DNA from: a virus | Length of the DNA stretch: 50,068 bases | Strand: one strand, 5' to 3' | Virus record (IMG/VR): IMGVR_UViG_3300013120_000266 | Span: 1-50,068 of that record | Part shown: positions 23,693 to 37,558 of the stretch, piece after piece | Layout of the letters: the number at the start of each line of letters is the position of its first letter | Numbering within the stretch: the stretch's first letter is position 1 | Notes under the pieces: generated by a model | What the model was told of the DNA's origin: nothing | The model's input: only the letters and a program-made list of their open reading frames with translations | Database searches by the model: none | Program-made: the position numbers and the translations under genes

Positions 23693-26600
23693 ATGATGGA
23701 CGATTTCCCGCCACGCAATGTTGGTGTCAGCGAACGCGTTATCAATTTAGCTGACCTTAATAAGTACCCTGCTACAGTTGTCAACGAGCAGACCAAGGAT
23801 CCAGCGCACGGGGTCGACGGCGCCCCGCCGAATTTCGCTAGACCAATGGTTCCGCACATCCATACGGTGCAGGGTCGCGTTGGGACTATCTCTCGCGTCT
23901 ATCGTCCCTCTGACGAAGCCCTCCGTCACTCGTATCACAACGCTCGTTATATGCGCAACGAGTGCGGCATCATGGAATGCCTCGAAGGTCGGCAACGCGG
24001 GTCGATTTTACTGAAGTGGCATCTTGAGCCAGAAGACGAAAAGTCAACCGACCAGCAAGCCCTGGTACAACAGCTAACTGACATCATTGACCGCATCCCG
24101 GACTTCACGGAGTATCGCAGAAATCTCCTCGAGGCCCTGTGGTTTGGAAAATATGCAACCGCACATAATTGGGGCTGGGACTGGGTGAAGGGCCGCCGGC
24201 GGAAAGTCATTAAGACGTGGGAACCGCGACATGGCGATAAGATCGTTTTCCGTTACGACGATGGCCGTCACAATTACGACCCGCGTCAGATCGGCATCCG
24301 GATTGGTGCCGATTATCAATGGGACGTGCACCACAAAAACTTTCTCGGTGAACCGCACAAAAAGGTCGAGGCTACCGACCAAGGTCTTGCGTATTTCCTC
24401 AATCAGTGGGAGCGAGACTTCCTCATTGCCATACATAAACACATCATAGAAGACGGTGCCTATGAAGACCCGGAACAGGCTGGTAGCATTCATGGCATCG
24501 GCATCAGGTCGCGCATTTATTGGACGTGGTATCAAATGTCTGAGTGCACGGCATGGCTGATGGAATATCTCGAACGCACAAGTTTTGGCGTTGAGCTGTG
24601 GCCGTACAAAGCTGGCAACCCGACCAGCGAACAGAAGACGCGCGAAGCCGCGCAAAAGCGAATCGGCGGCGGCCGGTCGATCGTCTTGGTGCCCATTCAG
24701 GAAGGTGAGGATCCGGCGTTGTGGCAAGTTCAGCACTTGGAACCTGGTCTGGCTGGTGCGGATGCCGTGAAAGACGTCATACAATCGTTCTTCCTGCAAA
24801 GAATCAAGCGATACATACTCGGGCAAACCCTCACGAGCGAAGCAGAGGCTACTGGGCTCGGCTCTGGTGTTGCGGACGCTCACCTCGCGACTTACATGGA
24901 TATCGTGCGATACGACGCCCGTAAACTCGAAGAAACCCTCACGACGGACCTGGTACGACCTTTGCAGCTGCAAAACTTCCCAGCATCGCACAGTATTCGG
25001 ATCAAGTTCAAAATCGACACGGAAGCTGACAACGCGTCCGAAATGCTCGAAGCTTACGAGCGAGCGTGGGCGATGGGGTTGCGGATCAAGGCTGATGACG
25101 TGGCGAGTATGATTGGCGCCGCGAAGCCCGATACCGACGACGAGACACTTCGTAACCCGCGGCTCGAACAGGCCGAACAACAGCAGGCAATGCTGGAACA
25201 GCAGCAAGCGATGGGTCTGGGGGCCGGTCCGGGGCAACCGGGGCAACCAGGACAACCCGGCCAGCCAAACGGCTTGCCCACGCAGGTCCCCGGCTGGACT
25301 CCACCCAGCAGTGACAATGAAGACGTGGAAGAATTTGATGATCCAGAAGGCCCGGATGGAGGAAAGAATGTCAATCTGATCCCTGAGTTTCGTCCTGGCG
25401 GGCCGTTTGATGATGAGGAAGAGCGGCACGCCAAACAGTGGGACGAGAGTAAACACCCGCGTGCTGCAGACGGGAAATTCGGACACGGCGAAGGCGCCAT
25501 TGCTCCCGGTGTAGCAGAAAAGTTGGCTCTCGCAGAGGCAAATGAGGAGGGCGTGCAGTACGCCCAGCTTGGCTTCAACTTCAAAGAGGAAGACCATCCA
25601 CGCGACGCTTCCGGGAAATTCACTGAAGGTGCCGGAGAGAAGAAAAAGCCCGCGGCCGCCGAAGCCGACAAGCCCTTCGAACTGAAGAATAAAGCCCCCT
25701 GGAAGAAAGCCGAATTTACGCCAGAGAAAAAGAAACAGGGGCAGCTCCTGGCCGGGTTGGACCTGTCGCCTGGACAGACTGATTTTCTGGAGGAACGGCC
25801 CGAGTTGGCCGCGGAGACGCATCCAAACCCCAAGCCTGAGCTTGCGGCAGAGACACACCCAGAGAGCAGCGGGGACGCGTCAGCTAAAGACTGGGCTGAC
25901 AAGATCATGCCGGCGGGCAAGTTCATTGACGAAGATGGTAACGAGCGAGGCGGAGACTGGTTTTGGGACGTGGTTGGCGAGATGTCCGACGAACAGCTCC
26001 AGGAAGCCCTAGAGCACGTTCGCGAGAACGGTACGCCACAACAGCAGAGGTGGCTTGTTCCGCCAATCAAGAGTGAGCTCGGCAAGCGAGCCAAGGGTGA
26101 GCCAAAGGAACCGCCGGCCGCCGCCGCGAAGCAAGCAAAAGCCGTGAAGGAACCGTGGGAGATGACTGGATATGAGTATGCAACTCAGCATTCTGGGAGA
26201 ATGAGGGAGTTGCGGGAAGCAAAACCGAGACCGATCGATAAATTATACGGAAAGAATGGCCCCACGCCCGAACAGGCAGCCGAACACAAGCAATTGATGA
26301 AAAGATGGAATCGTGCTTATCGTGCTGCATCTAAGGCGCATAAGGCATACCTGGAAGATCAAGGGAAACATCAGCGACTTGTTAAACAGGCCATCGACGA
26401 CGGCAAACCTGTCCCGGCTAAGGTTCTCGAAGGCTACCCAAGCCTCGCTTCTGATAAGGAACGAGAACGCCATACCATGCAAAACGACCAGTCTCTCGGC
26501 GCACTCTTCCGCGAGTGCTATCGCAATATGTCCTCTCCTGGCCAGCAGTCAATCATGGGAAAGGGCGGAACCGGAAGCCGATCAGCCAAGACTCAACAGG

Positions 26601-29164
26601 GACTGAAGTGGATCACGATCGGAGGTTCTCCGGGCGAAGGCGGCGAGCACGAGGGCGGCACACCGGTCAAAATAGACGAGAAGGGCCGAATACATGGCGG
26701 GTCCGAGGCATTGACCGGAGAGACGTTGGGGAAGATTGACAAGGACAAGGTTGGCGACAAGGGTGGCGGGAAGGCTGGCGGCGGGAAGCCAGAGAAGGTG
26801 TCGGAGGGTGGCGGCCCTGCAATGAAAGACATAGCTCCTGGGCACGAAAAGAAGATCCAAGATGCCTTGGCCGCCATCGCTGAGCATGACCCGCAATTAC
26901 TGGCCGGCCTCAAGCAGATTCAGGGCGGTACGCTGCCTCCAGGATTGAAGGCCAATGCGGTCGCAAGTACATCGTCTGGTACGATTTGGCTGCCTGACGG
27001 AAAAGCACCAGAAGAGCATTCAACTCTGGTTCACGAGCTAACGCATTTAAGGCAAGCAGCGGAAGGCAAAATTCCAGAAGGCGGTCGAGATGTAATGGAG
27101 CCAGACGCTTACAATCAACTCGAAATGGAGGCACGCCGCGCAGCCGCAAAGTACCAAGAACACGTTGATGAGAAACGGATCATGGACTATCTGAGTAAGT
27201 CTCAGGGAAAAGTCGGCCTGCGCGACCTTCGTACCGCCCTGGGCCATCCAAAGGTCGATCCTCAGGACCCGCTGTCAAACCAGATTCATAAAGCACTGGC
27301 CGGACTGCGGGACGCCGGTCGGGTTCAGGCTCACGAACCGGAACGCGGGGAGCCTAGCTTTTCGGCGAAGCCGGCTCAGCGGGCGGCCGCGGAAGGCAGT
27401 GAGGAGTCGGCTCCCTCCGCTTCTCCGCCATCGACTCCCACTGAGGCCTCCGTGAAAGCCCAGCCAACCCTAAAGGAACCCACAGCCGTATCGATACAGG
27501 GACACGATATGGACGTAGGCCAGTCCCGGGGAATGTGGTTTTTCCGGAGGTCATCTGCAGCTGGTTGGGTTGGGGCCAGTCCTGGCCTGTCTGCAGCCAT
27601 TGAGCAACAGCTCGGAGGCGGACAGGAAGAGCCTACAGAAACCCCTAAGGAGCGCGGTCGCGCGTCAGCAAAACAGTCACTAGACGAGGCTGTAGCCAGT
27701 GCTGTGGGTGACTCGCCGGAAGATCAGGCCGGATTCAGGACCGTCGTCGATGAGGTATGGAAACGGCGAAACAGAGAGGCGGCGGCCGAAAATAGCTCAC
27801 TCAGGAACTTGCTTGGCAATTTCGGATACGATGGCGCCAGACAGGGAGCACTAATACGGACCATACAAAAGACAGAGGACCCAGACCAGCTGACAAAAGG
27901 CAAGTCTGGGCTGAGGAAGCAGTGGGATCAAATCGTGGAATACGCGATTGCACACCACCCAGATCTCTTGGAATGGGGTGGTGGCGAGTTTATCGGGAAA
28001 GACGATGCCGAATACGCACTATTCAACCGCCTAAAAAAGGGGCTGGTGAAGGCCCCGCCGCGACATGACCCGGAAGTAATCCAGGAGGCCCTGGACTACA
28101 CGGAGACGGCGTCCGGCGGCGAGTTCGGAGAAGGTGAGGGCGATCTAAGTGGCCCGTGGGATGAATCACTGGCCGCACAGTCTGAGTCGTTTTCGGCTGG
28201 GATGTGGGAGCGAGCTGTAATTTACGCGAGGCGAGGCAATGCTGAGCAATATAAACAATTGACGACATTTGTGGAAAGCGAACACCCGCGAAATGCAGAT
28301 GGGGAATTTACAGATAAGGCCCGTGGACCTACAATGAAAACAGTGATTCGCAGTGGCAAATCATTTGTCATGGGTGACGGATCGCCGCTTCCTACGTACA
28401 TTCCGCGAATCCCTCCAGCATGGACAAAAGTATCGGTTGCAACCTCGCCGGATGCCCCTCTCTTGGTGACTGGGATTGATGCGAAAGGGCGAAAACAAAG
28501 CATCTATTCTACCTCTCATGCCATGCGGGCTGCTGCAGCGAAATTTGCGAAGATATCAGAATTGGTTGCGAAACGCAATGAAGTTATAAATGAAATGCGA
28601 GAAGCTACGTCTCGCGGGAATACGGAGGCAGAGGTCGCCCTGCTGATCAACGAAACGGGCTTGCGCCCTGGCTCTGGGCGGGACACAAAGGCTGAGAAAC
28701 AGGCATATGGTGCGACAACGCTTCTGGGGCGTCATGTTGTCGTGACCGATAGTGGCGTAAGACTGGTTTTTACAGGCAAGAAGGGCGTGGCTATTGACGT
28801 GGCAGTCACCAATCCTGCTATTTCGTCCATGTTGGCCAAACGCAAGCTGACAGTTGGCGAGCATGGCAGGCTGTTTGACACCAATGATCAGAAATTGCGG
28901 GCGTATGTGGCCACTCTTGATGGTGGAAAATTCAAGCCCAAAGACTTCCGTACTCTTGTCGGAACGACTCTTGCATCAGATTCAGTGCGGGAGAGGGTGC
29001 CAGCCAAAAATGATAAAGAATACAAGAAGCAAGTGCGTGAAATCGCACAGCACGTAGCGGCAAAGCTGGGCAATACACCGACCGTGGCGCTGCAGTCGTA
29101 TATTGATCCGACGGTTTTTAGTCGATTGCGGCCAATTTCACATGAGGAATCAGGTAATGAATGA
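23693..29164 (+). CDS. Portal polyprotein: DUF935 portal + zincin motif + topoisomerase IB
   Basis: ATG 23693 (or 23696) follows GGAG; the product is about 1823 aa. Residues 1-480 are a Mu gp29/DUF935 portal (YILGQTLTSEAEATGLGSG). A Gln/Pro/Gly linker follows. HPRxADGxF-type motifs occur at about 588, 635 and 1531. The middle is low-complexity, with a metallopeptidase HELTH motif at about 1114-1118 in TLVHELTHLRQ. From about 1540 to the end is a bacterial-type topoisomerase IB: IPRIPPAWTKV, ARG-GRKQ-like KGRKQ, ETGLRPGS, then catalytic candidates Arg1658, Lys1696/1697, Arg1753 (KDFRT), Asn1794 (LGNTP) and Tyr1803 (SYIDP). A portal of about 500 aa is usual; this is over three times longer. The topoisomerase part lies inside a segment bounded by a 32-bp direct repeat, which suggests later acquisition. 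It may be processed during assembly. Confidence 0.85.
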   Translation: MMDDFPPRNVGVSERVINLADLNKYPATVVNEQTKDPAHGVDGAPPNFARPMVPHIHTVQGRVGTISRVYRPSDEALRHSYHNARYMRNECGIMECLEGRQRGSILLKWHLEPEDEKSTDQQALVQQLTDIIDRIPDFTEYRRNLLEALWFGKYATAHNWGWDWVKGRRRKVIKTWEPRHGDKIVFRYDDGRHNYDPRQIGIRIGADYQWDVHHKNFLGEPHKKVEATDQGLAYFLNQWERDFLIAIHKHIIEDGAYEDPEQAGSIHGIGIRSRIYWTWYQMSECTAWLMEYLERTSFGVELWPYKAGNPTSEQKTREAAQKRIGGGRSIVLVPIQEGEDPALWQVQHLEPGLAGADAVKDVIQSFFLQRIKRYILGQTLTSEAEATGLGSGVADAHLATYMDIVRYDARKLEETLTTDLVRPLQLQNFPASHSIRIKFKIDTEADNASEMLEAYERAWAMGLRIKADDVASMIGAAKPDTDDETLRNPRLEQAEQQQAMLEQQQAMGLGAGPGQPGQPGQPGQPNGLPTQVPGWTPPSSDNEDVEEFDDPEGPDGGKNVNLIPEFRPGGPFDDEEERHAKQWDESKHPRAADGKFGHGEGAIAPGVAEKLALAEANEEGVQYAQLGFNFKEEDHPRDASGKFTEGAGEKKKPAAAEADKPFELKNKAPWKKAEFTPEKKKQGQLLAGLDLSPGQTDFLEERPELAAETHPNPKPELAAETHPESSGDASAKDWADKIMPAGKFIDEDGNERGGDWFWDVVGEMSDEQLQEALEHVRENGTPQQQRWLVPPIKSELGKRAKGEPKEPPAAAAKQAKAVKEPWEMTGYEYATQHSGRMRELREAKPRPIDKLYGKNGPTPEQAAEHKQLMKRWNRAYRAASKAHKAYLEDQGKHQRLVKQAIDDGKPVPAKVLEGYPSLASDKERERHTMQNDQSLGALFRECYRNMSSPGQQSIMGKGGTGSRSAKTQQGLKWITIGGSPGEGGEHEGGTPVKIDEKGRIHGGSEALTGETLGKIDKDKVGDKGGGKAGGGKPEKVSEGGGPAMKDIAPGHEKKIQDALAAIAEHDPQLLAGLKQIQGGTLPPGLKANAVASTSSGTIWLPDGKAPEEHSTLVHELTHLRQAAEGKIPEGGRDVMEPDAYNQLEMEARRAAAKYQEHVDEKRIMDYLSKSQGKVGLRDLRTALGHPKVDPQDPLSNQIHKALAGLRDAGRVQAHEPERGEPSFSAKPAQRAAAEGSEESAPSASPPSTPTEASVKAQPTLKEPTAVSIQGHDMDVGQSRGMWFFRRSSAAGWVGASPGLSAAIEQQLGGGQEEPTETPKERGRASAKQSLDEAVASAVGDSPEDQAGFRTVVDEVWKRRNREAAAENSSLRNLLGNFGYDGARQGALIRTIQKTEDPDQLTKGKSGLRKQWDQIVEYAIAHHPDLLEWGGGEFIGKDDAEYALFNRLKKGLVKAPPRHDPEVIQEALDYTETASGGEFGEGEGDLSGPWDESLAAQSESFSAGMWERAVIYARRGNAEQYKQLTTFVESEHPRNADGEFTDKARGPTMKTVIRSGKSFVMGDGSPLPTYIPRIPPAWTKVSVATSPDAPLLVTGIDAKGRKQSIYSTSHAMRAAAAKFAKISELVAKRNEVINEMREATSRGNTEAEVALLINETGLRPGSGRDTKAEKQAYGATTLLGRHVVVTDSGVRLVFTGKKGVAIDVAVTNPAISSMLAKRKLTVGEHGRLFDTNDQKLRAYVATLDGGKFKPKDFRTLVGTTLASDSVRERVPAKNDKEYKKQVREIAQHVAAKLGNTPTVALQSYIDPTVFSRLRPISHEESGNE
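28211..28242 (+). repeat. 32-bp direct repeat, copy 1 (inside portal polyprotein)
   Basis: This is an exact 32-base match to 29354-29385, starting CGAGCTGTAATTTACGCGAG. Here it is coding and is read as RAVIYARRGNA in the polyprotein frame. The two copies are 1143 bp apart, a multiple of three. Confidence 0.95.
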
Positions 29165-29363
29165 TCCGCATAATGCTGGTGCAGACATCTTTTTTGTTGG
29201 CAAAGACGAGATTGATTGGCGAGAAGAAGAAGAAACGGAGGACCCAGATGATTTACAGGTTGAAACGCCAGTAGATGTGACTCTTGTTCTTGGATTTGAT
29301 CCAACAACGTGTGAGGATGTCGGCTGCGGCGGGAAACCCGAAAGTTTGGCGAACGAGCTGTAA
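29157..29363 (+). CDS. Small acidic hypothetical protein (68 aa)
   Basis: The ATG at 29157 overlaps the end of the portal polyprotein by 8 nt, with GAGGAA upstream. The 68-aa product is very acidic (EIDWREEEETEDPDD) with two Cys residues. Its stop codon lies inside copy 2 of the 32-bp repeat, so it appears to belong to the same inserted segment as the topoisomerase domain. Possible roles are DNA mimicry or partner of the topoisomerase; neither is shown. Confidence 0.55.
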   Translation: MNDPHNAGADIFFVGKDEIDWREEEETEDPDDLQVETPVDVTLVLGFDPTTCEDVGCGGKPESLANEL

Positions 29364-29385
29364 TTTACGCGAGGCGAGGCAATGC
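29354..29385 (+). repeat. 32-bp direct repeat, copy 2 (stop, ribosome site and start codon)
   Basis: This copy carries the TAA stop of the 68-aa gene, a GAGGCGAGG Shine-Dalgarno and the ATG of the next methyltransferase. Reading through it in the polyprotein frame gives RAVIYARRGNADTGSAV and a TGA at 29405-29407. That is probably the original portal C-terminus. Confidence 0.95.
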
Positions 29386-30002
29386 CGATACCGGATCCGC
29401 CGTTTGATCGCCAGCAGATACTGGCGATGGGAATGGAAGACTGGCAGGACGGGTGCGTCAAGTACGCGGTAGATGTTGATGCATGTTGGGAAGACAACGT
29501 GCGGCGCGCCGAAATGCTCGGCCTGATGGCCACGCAACAGCATTACGTCCTAGACCTTGGTGCCGGCTTCGGATTCTTTGGGGCGGCTACAGGCCTCAAA
29601 GATCATGTGGTGTTCTCGCTCGATTGCGATCGGCCAATCATTCGCCGCGCGGCAGAGATCATTGGAGGCCGCCGCATCTGGGGCAAAATCGAAGACGCCA
29701 TCTCTGGCAACCTTTGGCCGGACGCGCCAATCTCGCTTGTCACAATGTGGCAGGTCATCTCAGGCGACGTGTGGAACATTGGCTTACTCACGTCTAGCAT
29801 TGCGGCAGTCCTGTTGAGGCTCCCGAATGACGGCCGGTTCGTAATCGGTTGGAACGAAACGCCCGCCGACTGTGACCTGCATCGCAGCACGTCATACGTC
29901 ATGGGGCAGCTGGCCAAAATCTTTGCGGTGGAGAACCATGAAGGCTTGGCCATGAAGACCGGAACTTACAAAATGTCCATCATTCGCAGGCAAAGGAATT
30001 AG
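29382..30002 (+). CDS. SAM-dependent methyltransferase
   Basis: The ATG lies inside repeat copy 2, 3 nt or so after GAGGCGAGG. The 206-aa product has a clear class I motif I (VLDLGAGFGFFGAATG), the acidic loop FSLDCDRP and a later strand GRFVIGWNE. Size and motifs fit a small-molecule, sugar or protein methyltransferase; I see no DNA-methylase DPPY-type motif. It lies between the portal and a beta-helix-like gene, so a role in modifying virion components or their glycans is possible. Confidence 0.65.
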   Translation: MPIPDPPFDRQQILAMGMEDWQDGCVKYAVDVDACWEDNVRRAEMLGLMATQQHYVLDLGAGFGFFGAATGLKDHVVFSLDCDRPIIRRAAEIIGGRRIWGKIEDAISGNLWPDAPISLVTMWQVISGDVWNIGLLTSSIAAVLLRLPNDGRFVIGWNETPADCDLHRSTSYVMGQLAKIFAVENHEGLAMKTGTYKMSIIRRQRN

Positions 30003-35986: not shown

Positions 35987-36421
35987 ATGTTTTGGCAGCG
36001 AAAGAAGAAGAGGTGGATCTTCACGTACTTTGACGGACTCTGCACGAGATCTGTGGATCCAATGGTTGCCTTTCGGACACTGCGAGATGACAAAGAGTTC
36101 CGTGCAGAAGTGCATCCGCATCTCGTGGACGTTGGCGATGAGGAGGCCGTCCAAGTCACCCTGCGTGCTATACGGCGCACTTTTGGCGTTACAGCCTATG
36201 CAGACGATCTGGCGGGAGGGCTCACGGAACTTGAAACACTGGAACTTCTCGGCGACTTTTATGAATTCATCGATTCCGTAAAAAAAAACACCAGGCCTTC
36301 GCAGACGCCATCTGCCTCTACGGAGCCGATCTTGTCGCCCTTGAACGAGATGAGCCCGAGCGATACGGCGCCTTGCTCTTGCTCCAGCCAAGAGAAGAGC
36401 TTCGAGCAGCCAACAGAATAA
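35987..36421 (+). CDS. Tail assembly chaperone, short product (gpG-like)
   Basis: GGGAGGTGA precedes the ATG. The 144-aa frame encodes a compact alpha/beta chaperone domain (RWIFTYFDGLC; VAFRTLRDDKEF; ELLGDFYEFIDSVKK), followed after codon 100 by a low-complexity Ser/Pro/Thr-rich tail. The heptamer A-AAA-AAC at 36283-36289 lies at the end of the folded part. A -1 shift there fuses it to the downstream frame. Abundant short and scarce long chaperones control tail-tube length and tape-measure loading in lambda-like tails. Confidence 0.75.
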   Translation: MFWQRKKKRWIFTYFDGLCTRSVDPMVAFRTLRDDKEFRAEVHPHLVDVGDEEAVQVTLRAIRRTFGVTAYADDLAGGLTELETLELLGDFYEFIDSVKKNTRPSQTPSASTEPILSPLNEMSPSDTAPCSCSSQEKSFEQPTE

Positions 36422-36586: not shown

Positions 36587-37558
36587 ATGGCCGGTACGCT
36601 GCTCGCATCTATAGCTGGAACTCTCGCCTCCCTGCTGGCCCGCCTCGGCTTGGGCGCTGCCGCGTCTCAAGCCGGGGCGGCCAGTGGTGCTTCTGTGGGC
36701 GGAGCCAAGGCAGTTGGACTCGGCGGGCGGGCCGCGGCGGCCGCCGAGTCCCGCCGCGTTATAGCCGCGGCGGCCGCCGAGTCCCGCCGCCAAGCCGCCG
36801 CCAGTGGTGCTACTGTGGGCGGAGCCAGGACAGTTGGACTCGGCGGGCAGGCCGCGGCGGCCGCCGAGTCCCAGGCGAGCTTACTTCAGAAGTTTGGCAA
36901 GATGGGGGCCATTGCCGATCAAGTCTCTAGTACGGGGGTAAAGGCGAGACAACAACAACAACACGAGGACGCACTAAAGGAAGCCAAAGCCCAGGCGTTA
37001 AAGACAACCAAGCGACTCACGTTCGGCATTCTTGGCATGTCTCTTGCCATGATTGGACTGCCAAAGGCCATCCAGAAAGTAACCGAGCGACTAACTGAGA
37101 AAGCCAGGGCCCTGGAACAGTTCGGCGGGGCCATCGCGATCGCATCGCAGAACCTTGAGGCTCAGCGCCTCGCTCGCCACGTTCATTTGGCCAGTATGAC
37201 CGGGGCGTCTTCGACACGGTTGATGAGGAGTCAGAACGATCTTGAGAAAGCGATGTTGCCATACAAGGTAATGTCCACAAATGTGCTCAACGATATAGCC
37301 GCCGCCGCCAATAGGGCTACCGCGTTCGCTGTCTCAAACGCTAGAGCTATCAGCGCCAAGTTTGACCTGTTAATGCGTCTTCTGGAACTGTGGTATGGCG
37401 AAGCAAACCCCATGGCCGTCCCATGGGTCAACTTCATCAATGATTTGTCGAATGGTGACGTCGGTAGAGTCAGTGTTCGCGAGCGAATGATGGAGGAGAG
37501 GCGAGCGGCCGAGGCAGCGGCCAGAGAGCGGCGCCGGCAAGGCCGCGTGGCTCCATAA
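36587..37558 (+). CDS. Short tape-measure-like protein
   Basis: A GAGGT site precedes the ATG at 36587. The 323-aa product is Ala-rich and helical, with an N-terminal low-complexity domain made of duplicated ASGA[ST]VGGA and AAAAAES units. A hydrophobic segment (TFGILGMSLAMIGLPKAI) and a basic C-terminal helix (RAAEAAARERRRQGR) follow. Tape-measure proteins have just this mix and follow the chaperone genes. At this length the tail would be short, about 50 nm if the usual 0.15 nm per residue applies. It may be an internal virion protein instead. Confidence 0.55.
   Translation: MAGTLLASIAGTLASLLARLGLGAAASQAGAASGASVGGAKAVGLGGRAAAAAESRRVIAAAAAESRRQAAASGATVGGARTVGLGGQAAAAAESQASLLQKFGKMGAIADQVSSTGVKARQQQQHEDALKEAKAQALKTTKRLTFGILGMSLAMIGLPKAIQKVTERLTEKARALEQFGGAIAIASQNLEAQRLARHVHLASMTGASSTRLMRSQNDLEKAMLPYKVMSTNVLNDIAAAANRATAFAVSNARAISAKFDLLMRLLELWYGEANPMAVPWVNFINDLSNGDVGRVSVRERMMEERRAAEAAARERRRQGRVAP
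36681..36872 (+). repeat. Imperfect 72-bp direct repeat within the tape-measure candidate
   Basis: The segments 36681-36752 and 36801-36872 are nearly identical (four or so differences). A partial third copy of the GC-rich CGGCGGCCGCCGAGTC element lies between them. The 120-bp period is a multiple of three. Confidence 0.75.

Follow-up and report, generated by a model that had tools for sequence, protein, structure and literature searches.

The portal gene and the topoisomerase segment

The virus contig IMGVR_UViG_3300013120_000266 from IMG/VR (the window is the whole stretch analysed, 50,068 nucleotides (nt) long) carries a portal gene whose 3' end encodes a topoisomerase IB domain and which is followed by a small acidic gene and a methyltransferase-like gene (Table 1). 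The topoisomerase domain and the acidic gene lie between the two copies of an exact direct repeat. This segment is probably a portable cargo cassette that entered the portal gene at its 3' end by illegitimate recombination with a 32-bp target duplication (probability about 0.7).

The portal polyprotein consists of a Mu-type portal core (23714-25156), HPR linkers, a metallopeptidase-like stretch and the C-terminal topoisomerase IB. The guanine-cytosine (GC) content of the putative cassette is 0.50, versus 0.56-0.58 in its flanks, and the 1111-bp segment of lowest GC in the contig begins at 28211. By maximum likelihood, the low-GC block within the surrounding 7 kb spans 28248-29307 and fits between the repeat copies, starting 5 nt inward of the left copy and stopping 47 nt before the right copy. 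Low GC was rejected as a rule for all cassettes (mean difference -0.007 over 78 loci), and the composition shift would therefore be specific to the insertion in the window. Consensus matching found four promoter-like sites in the cassette, where 1.0 is expected, and no terminator-like site on its + strand.

Table 1. Features of the portal 3' region in the window
Feature	Position	Strand	Remarks
Portal polyprotein gene, 1826 amino acids	23684..29164	+	Pfam Portal_Mu 1.4e-30, Topoisom_I 7.2e-16
Direct repeat, copy 1	28211..28242	+	in portal frame, codes RAVIYARRGNA (ERAVIYARRGNAEQYKQL)
Putative inserted cassette	28243..29353	+	between repeat copies; low GC
HPR linker ESEHPRNADGEF	28274..28308	+	one of three in the polyprotein (others near 25445 and 25586)
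Topoisomerase IB domain	28331..29164	+	Pfam and PDB matches; ends the portal gene
Small acidic gene, 68 amino acids	29157..29363	+	overlaps topoisomerase stop; stop codon within copy 2
Direct repeat, copy 2	29354..29385	+	acidic-gene stop, Shine-Dalgarno-like AGGCGAGG, ATG of next gene
Methyltransferase-like gene, 206 amino acids	29382..30002	+	LDLGAGFG motif; start preserved

The direct repeat and the overlap of the neighbouring genes

The 32-nt sequence CGAGCTGTAATTTACGCGAGGCGAGGCAATGC occurs in two exact copies 1143 bp (381 codons) apart, and the similarity extends to 36 of 38 positions (28208-28245 and 29351-29388). The recurrence pointed out in the sequence-only reading is thereby confirmed and lies far beyond chance, as about 8e-11 such repeats would be expected from base composition. 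It is the longest direct repeat of the contig, in which a single longer repeat, inverted and of 37 nt, was found (1119/36223). The 20-mer core of the repeat does not occur in other viral contigs. As the two copies are read in different frames, protein-level constraint cannot account for their identity.

The second copy supplies, as that reading also held, the TAA of the 68-amino-acid gene (PESLANEL*) together with the AGGCGAGG and ATG of the 206-amino-acid gene (MPIPDPPFDR). The first copy has kept a AGGCGAGG-ATG that opens seven codons only (MLSNINN*), as expected for the vestige of a duplicated gene start. When the flanks are joined computationally, the portal frame ends in ERAVIYARRGNADTGSAV, reading ..GMWERAVIYARRGNADTGSAV up to a TGA at 29405-29407 (joined flank peptide MWERAVIYARRGNADTGSAV), and this end overlaps the ATG at 29382 of the methyltransferase-like gene. 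The intact overlap predicted for the joined genes is thus borne out.

Such repeats are rare in comparable loci. Of 101 related loci, covering about 1.2 Mb, only 10 contain exact repeats of at least 28 nt lying more than 300 bp apart, and four of these (L025, L041, L049 and L089) have the repeat at cargo/linker junctions.

Variable extensions in relatives of the portal

Single-sequence searches with the portal and the terminase of the window returned no relatives in viral contigs. A two-row profile built from the window portal and L059, whose portal core shares 51% identity with that of the window (as does L117, from the same contig), recovered 25 portal relatives (32-53% identity). Among these 25, only L117 carries a topoisomerase in its portal gene. 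In complete genes, the part that follows the portal core is 57 to 2212 residues long, and it may include ART-PolyVal, InPase, NUDIX or methyltransferase domains. A search of 19 whole records of this portal lineage found both the topoisomerase and the acidic gene in two of them and neither in the other 17. L109/L056, one of the two with both genes, has them away from the portal. The variable extensions and the presence of the pair in only two of the 19 records indicate that the portal C-terminus is a variable cargo site, of which the topoisomerase pair is an optional occupant. A lineage in which every relative carries the topoisomerase with no repeat, the outcome held to contradict an insertion, was therefore not encountered.

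A parallel insertion in an unrelated phage

The portal genes of L025 and L092 encode proteins that are 80% identical. In L092 the portal core is joined to its tail with nothing between, whereas in L025 core and tail are separated by a linker-topoisomerase, then by the acidic gene, a linker and an ADP-ribosyltransferase-like domain. In both, the portal tail overlaps the next gene (CCATGA). The tail sequence of L025 recurs 3' of the acidic gene as an exact copy of 31 nt (7028/7972), and the topoisomerase and the acidic gene together stand between the copies of an 86-nt linker repeat (5848/7055; 98% identity). By comparison of the two sequences, an unrelated phage shows the same outcome as the window: a 3'-end cassette, a duplicated gene end and an intact start of the neighbouring gene. 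This insertion logic, presented as without known precedent in portal genes, is therefore not unique to the window.

Spread of the module across phages

From 177 relatives found in one viral scan, 80 topoisomerases were kept. A single peptide pattern run against 85,000 species genomes gave at least one match, in a truncated bacterial metagenome-assembled genome, which is a lower bound. The topoisomerase is nearly always the C-terminal domain of its reading frame and is usually preceded by a linker of the HPRDxxGKF, GxGSGNFGHAGRPG, HLQGRHNQLTHGRG or a similar type. The upstream domains of 49 members comprise Phage_portal_3 (17), Phage_portal (3), Phage_portal_2 (3), Portal_Mu (2), MuF (5), NUDIX (3), InPase (3), ADP-ribosyltransferase (2) and others, so that the module stands behind four Pfam portal families. 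When 79 topoisomerases are placed in a tree, 14 changes of host-gene context can be counted. The topoisomerase of the window groups (98%) with copies found in other contexts and not with that of L059, the only other copy fused to the same portal lineage. At the DNA level, L064 and L062/L044 share the linker and the topoisomerase (and the acidic gene in the case of L044) and little outside. Linker, topoisomerase IB and acidic gene recur together in dozens of phages, which supports the earlier view of the segment as a real module and indicates that it would be a portable unit across many environmental phages.

The topoisomerase IB domain and its acidic partner

The catalytic Arg, Lys, Arg, Asn and Tyr are all intact in the window domain, and this pentad is kept in 79 homologues with the sole exception of one Asn to His change. 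The domain matches the Deinococcus and variola enzymes in PDB (2f4q, 5e-18; 2h7f, 1e-6) and has their fold and catalytic residues. A modelled relative (L008) also adopts the topoisomerase IB fold; the structural search returned, far more weakly, Xer and integrase folds. With the catalytic core Arg-Lys-Arg-His/Asn-Tyr of this enzyme family, the window protein is predicted to be an active topoisomerase IB. The phage branch is about 30% identical to plasmid-borne bacterial topoisomerase IB, and named phages have only a distant standalone topoisomerase. Unlike the bacterial and poxviral enzymes, the phage form is a C-terminal extension of head proteins and is accompanied by an acidic partner gene.

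In 67 of 77 viral loci, the topoisomerase is followed directly by a relative of the 68-amino-acid gene, and in five more such a relative lies no further than 820 nt away; this gene is therefore not a random small gene. The family has the consensus DxHFG...DWR...DPDDEE.ETP.DVVA.LGFDP, in which LGFDP is invariant in the alignment, and is absent from Pfam, PHROG and NCBIfam. Divergent versions can be recognized by eye in L005 and L008, that of L008 being fused to the topoisomerase polypeptide. The low-confidence model of the acidic protein is coil for the most part and has a short helix ahead of LGFDP; in the L008 fusion protein, the acidic tail is modelled as disordered. In L062, L031, L022, L085 and L077, the acidic gene lies 320-820 nt past the topoisomerase domain, which suggests later insertions between the members of the pair.

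Origin of the repeats

The following model can be drawn for the insertion. A cassette made of the HPR linker, the topoisomerase IB and the acidic gene would have entered where the portal gene overlapped the start of the next gene, and 32 bp of this overlap would have been duplicated. The left copy would let the portal frame run on into the cassette, and the right copy would leave the next gene with its ribosome site and start codon. Recombination was most likely illegitimate and out of register, between phage genomes or concatemers replicating together; this would involve two join points overlapping by 32 bp in the recipient, a situation that might easily be reached between co-replicating genomes. 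The survivors would be the insertions that spare both overlapping genes, and the 32-bp identity should permit excision by ordinary homologous recombination.

The repeats might instead be the remnants of a tandem cargo array, in which adapter-linkers were duplicated with each module and homologous recombination between them made the array grow and shrink, the second copy marking a module since lost. Linker or adapter repeats do flank modules in L025 (86 nt), L041 (47-75 nt), L034, L049 (32 nt exact), L079 and L089. Moreover, bracketing repeats scoring at least 16 were found at 14 of 69 loci and at 30 of 673 control placements (Fisher p 1.2e-5), a comparison that is conservative as the control placements partly contain the same repeats. 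In the window, however, the repeat lies upstream of the HPR linker and is not the linker itself, and the second copy is outside the portal frame, where it provides the start signals of the neighbour as an original gene start would. Since repeats of this sort are common among these phages, such an array is a serious alternative, though an unlikely source of the window repeat.

Still less probable, and very much so, is an artefact in which unrelated contigs were linked during metagenome assembly because they had the 32-mer in common. The window is a single metagenomic contig that also contains a 37-nt exact inverted repeat, and the length of the direct repeat is near common k-mer sizes. Nevertheless, the portal frame is open through the first copy into the topoisomerase, the order of the modules and the overlapping topoisomerase and acidic genes match those of relatives, and a portal-fused topoisomerase is found in other contigs, one of them of the same portal lineage.

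Hardly credible is a site-specific mobility in which the topoisomerase IB, a tyrosine transesterase with a tyrosine-recombinase fold, would move its own cassette between attachment or staggered-nick sites: its catalytic pentad is intact and the structural search gave weak Xer and integrase matches, but the cassettes share no end sequence, have no inverted repeats at their ends and mostly lack a flanking repeat, the repeat lengths vary (31, 32 and 86 nt), and no integration of genes is known for topoisomerase IB enzymes. The site-specific excision that had been envisaged is unsupported as well, the cassette carrying no recombinase besides the topoisomerase and no inverted repeats at its ends. 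An insertion sequence or transposon was rejected, as only the topoisomerase and acidic genes lie between the copies and terminal inverted repeats are lacking; an element integrated by a tyrosine recombinase was rejected in view of the absence of a shared att core among the cassettes and of the variation of the repeats in sequence and length.

Several points weigh against the insertion with target duplication. In the collections searched, no relative of the methyltransferase-like gene could be detected, and for this reason neither the empty site of the window nor a cassette-free relative whose portal ends near RRGNADTGSAV was found. The log-likelihood gain of the low-GC block is 10.1 compared with a mean of 4.2 and a maximum of 12.3 in 60 block shuffles, which makes the composition test moderate, suggestive and not overwhelming. 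The preference for an insertion over a deletion from an array draws on parsimony, composition and the L025/L092 parallel, and the junction repeats of most other phages are linker repeats and not pure target duplications. To our knowledge, a 32-bp target duplication fits no known transposase. Finally, both the location in the virion and the activity of the portal topoisomerase are predicted. The proposal that a cassette entered the portal 3' end without harming the next gene therefore holds as regards the module, its composition, its absence from 17 of the 19 records and the gene overlap, and falls short as regards the empty site.

Relation to known systems and possible function

Effector domains on portal or MuF proteins are an already published class (PMC5512222, PMC5576092). 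In phage polyvalent proteins, enzymatic domains are fused to portal or MuF proteins of phages with a portal-terminase system and are presumed to be packaged and delivered (PMC5512222). The window, with a terminase and an effector domain on its portal, has this architecture, and its portal relatives carry ART-PolyVal, InPase and NUDIX domains as polyvalent proteins do. The text of that paper does not mention a topoisomerase among the fused domains and gives no account of an acidic partner gene; in the passages considered here, cassette recombination is raised just as a possibility (PMC5512222).

In MuF polymorphic toxins, a head protein bears a C-terminal cargo, which varies while the carrier is conserved, and a small gene proposed to confer immunity follows directly (PMC5576092). 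The window likewise has a C-terminal cargo on a head protein and an immediate small gene; it differs in that the carrier is a portal, the cargo is a topoisomerase and the small gene belongs to one acidic family tied to this topoisomerase. No N-terminal MuF domain is found in the window, whose carrier is Portal_Mu, whereas some relatives of the cargo are borne by MuF proteins. In the literature searched, no link of topoisomerase IB with portal proteins was found.

Morons of tailed phages are extra genes of odd composition that lie between neighbouring phage genes and are absent from relatives. The cassette is similarly absent from relatives, which are about 50% identical and not close, and differs in composition. 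Unlike morons, it continues the reading frame of an essential gene and has a direct duplication at its borders; of the promoter and terminator of its own that a moron would have, only consensus matches to promoters were found.

Portal C-termini generally face the capsid interior, and the product, a portal with a topoisomerase IB tail, would thus presumably act there on packaged DNA, during packaging, or on ejected DNA if freed from its linker. The acidic protein would be made separately as a partner and might serve as inhibitor, chaperone or adaptor, DNA mimicry being possible. By extension, and much more tentatively, many environmental phages might possess a virion topoisomerase IB that is tethered to portal or MuF proteins and checked by a mostly disordered acidic partner. 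The portable pair would land at portal 3' ends through overlap-preserving duplications and would resemble a toxin-immunity pair acting on DNA topology during packaging or entry.

The cassette of the window would extend the cargo that phages may pack beside their DNA to an enzyme of DNA topology that brings a partner gene with it. For the entry of cargo into tightly overlapping head-gene operons that are to stay intact, it suggests a simple, testable rule: the overlap of the genes has to be duplicated on insertion. Although unannotated in Pfam, PHROGs and NCBIfam, the acidic family is strongly tied to topoisomerase IB.

The neighbouring gene and other repeats

The label of the 206-amino-acid methyltransferase-like gene was assigned by motif only. 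This gene has no Pfam or PHROG match, and no relatives of it were found in viral contigs, phages or the 19 portal-lineage records. An Rfam search gave nothing.

Repeats of other kinds were observed in several phages. In L049, an exact 32-nt repeat coding EAKDAEWKESE (L049:5100 and L049:5983) precedes both an ADP-ribosyltransferase-like module and the topoisomerase, and the duplication takes in the entire adapter segment that lies upstream of the linker. L041 contains many near-identical HLQGRHNQLTHG linker repeats (L041:8603, 9176 and 10243), and linker types hence appear to be uniform within a phage and different between phages. An exact 30-nt direct repeat follows the long portal polyprotein gene of L102 (L102:14788 and L102:16275) and looks like a duplicated hairpin terminator (GCGGGCC..TTTTTTT).

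In the window itself, the arms of the exact 37-nt inverted repeat (1119-1155 and 36223-36259) are 35 kb apart. It codes KVAEKFQCFKFR in one frame and sits reversed within a reading frame that is unrelated; a further event of short duplication or a chimera made in assembly could account for it. The reading frame 36587-37558 contains, at 36677-36877, GC-rich repeats made of two 93% identical copies of 76 nt and of 27-nt units.

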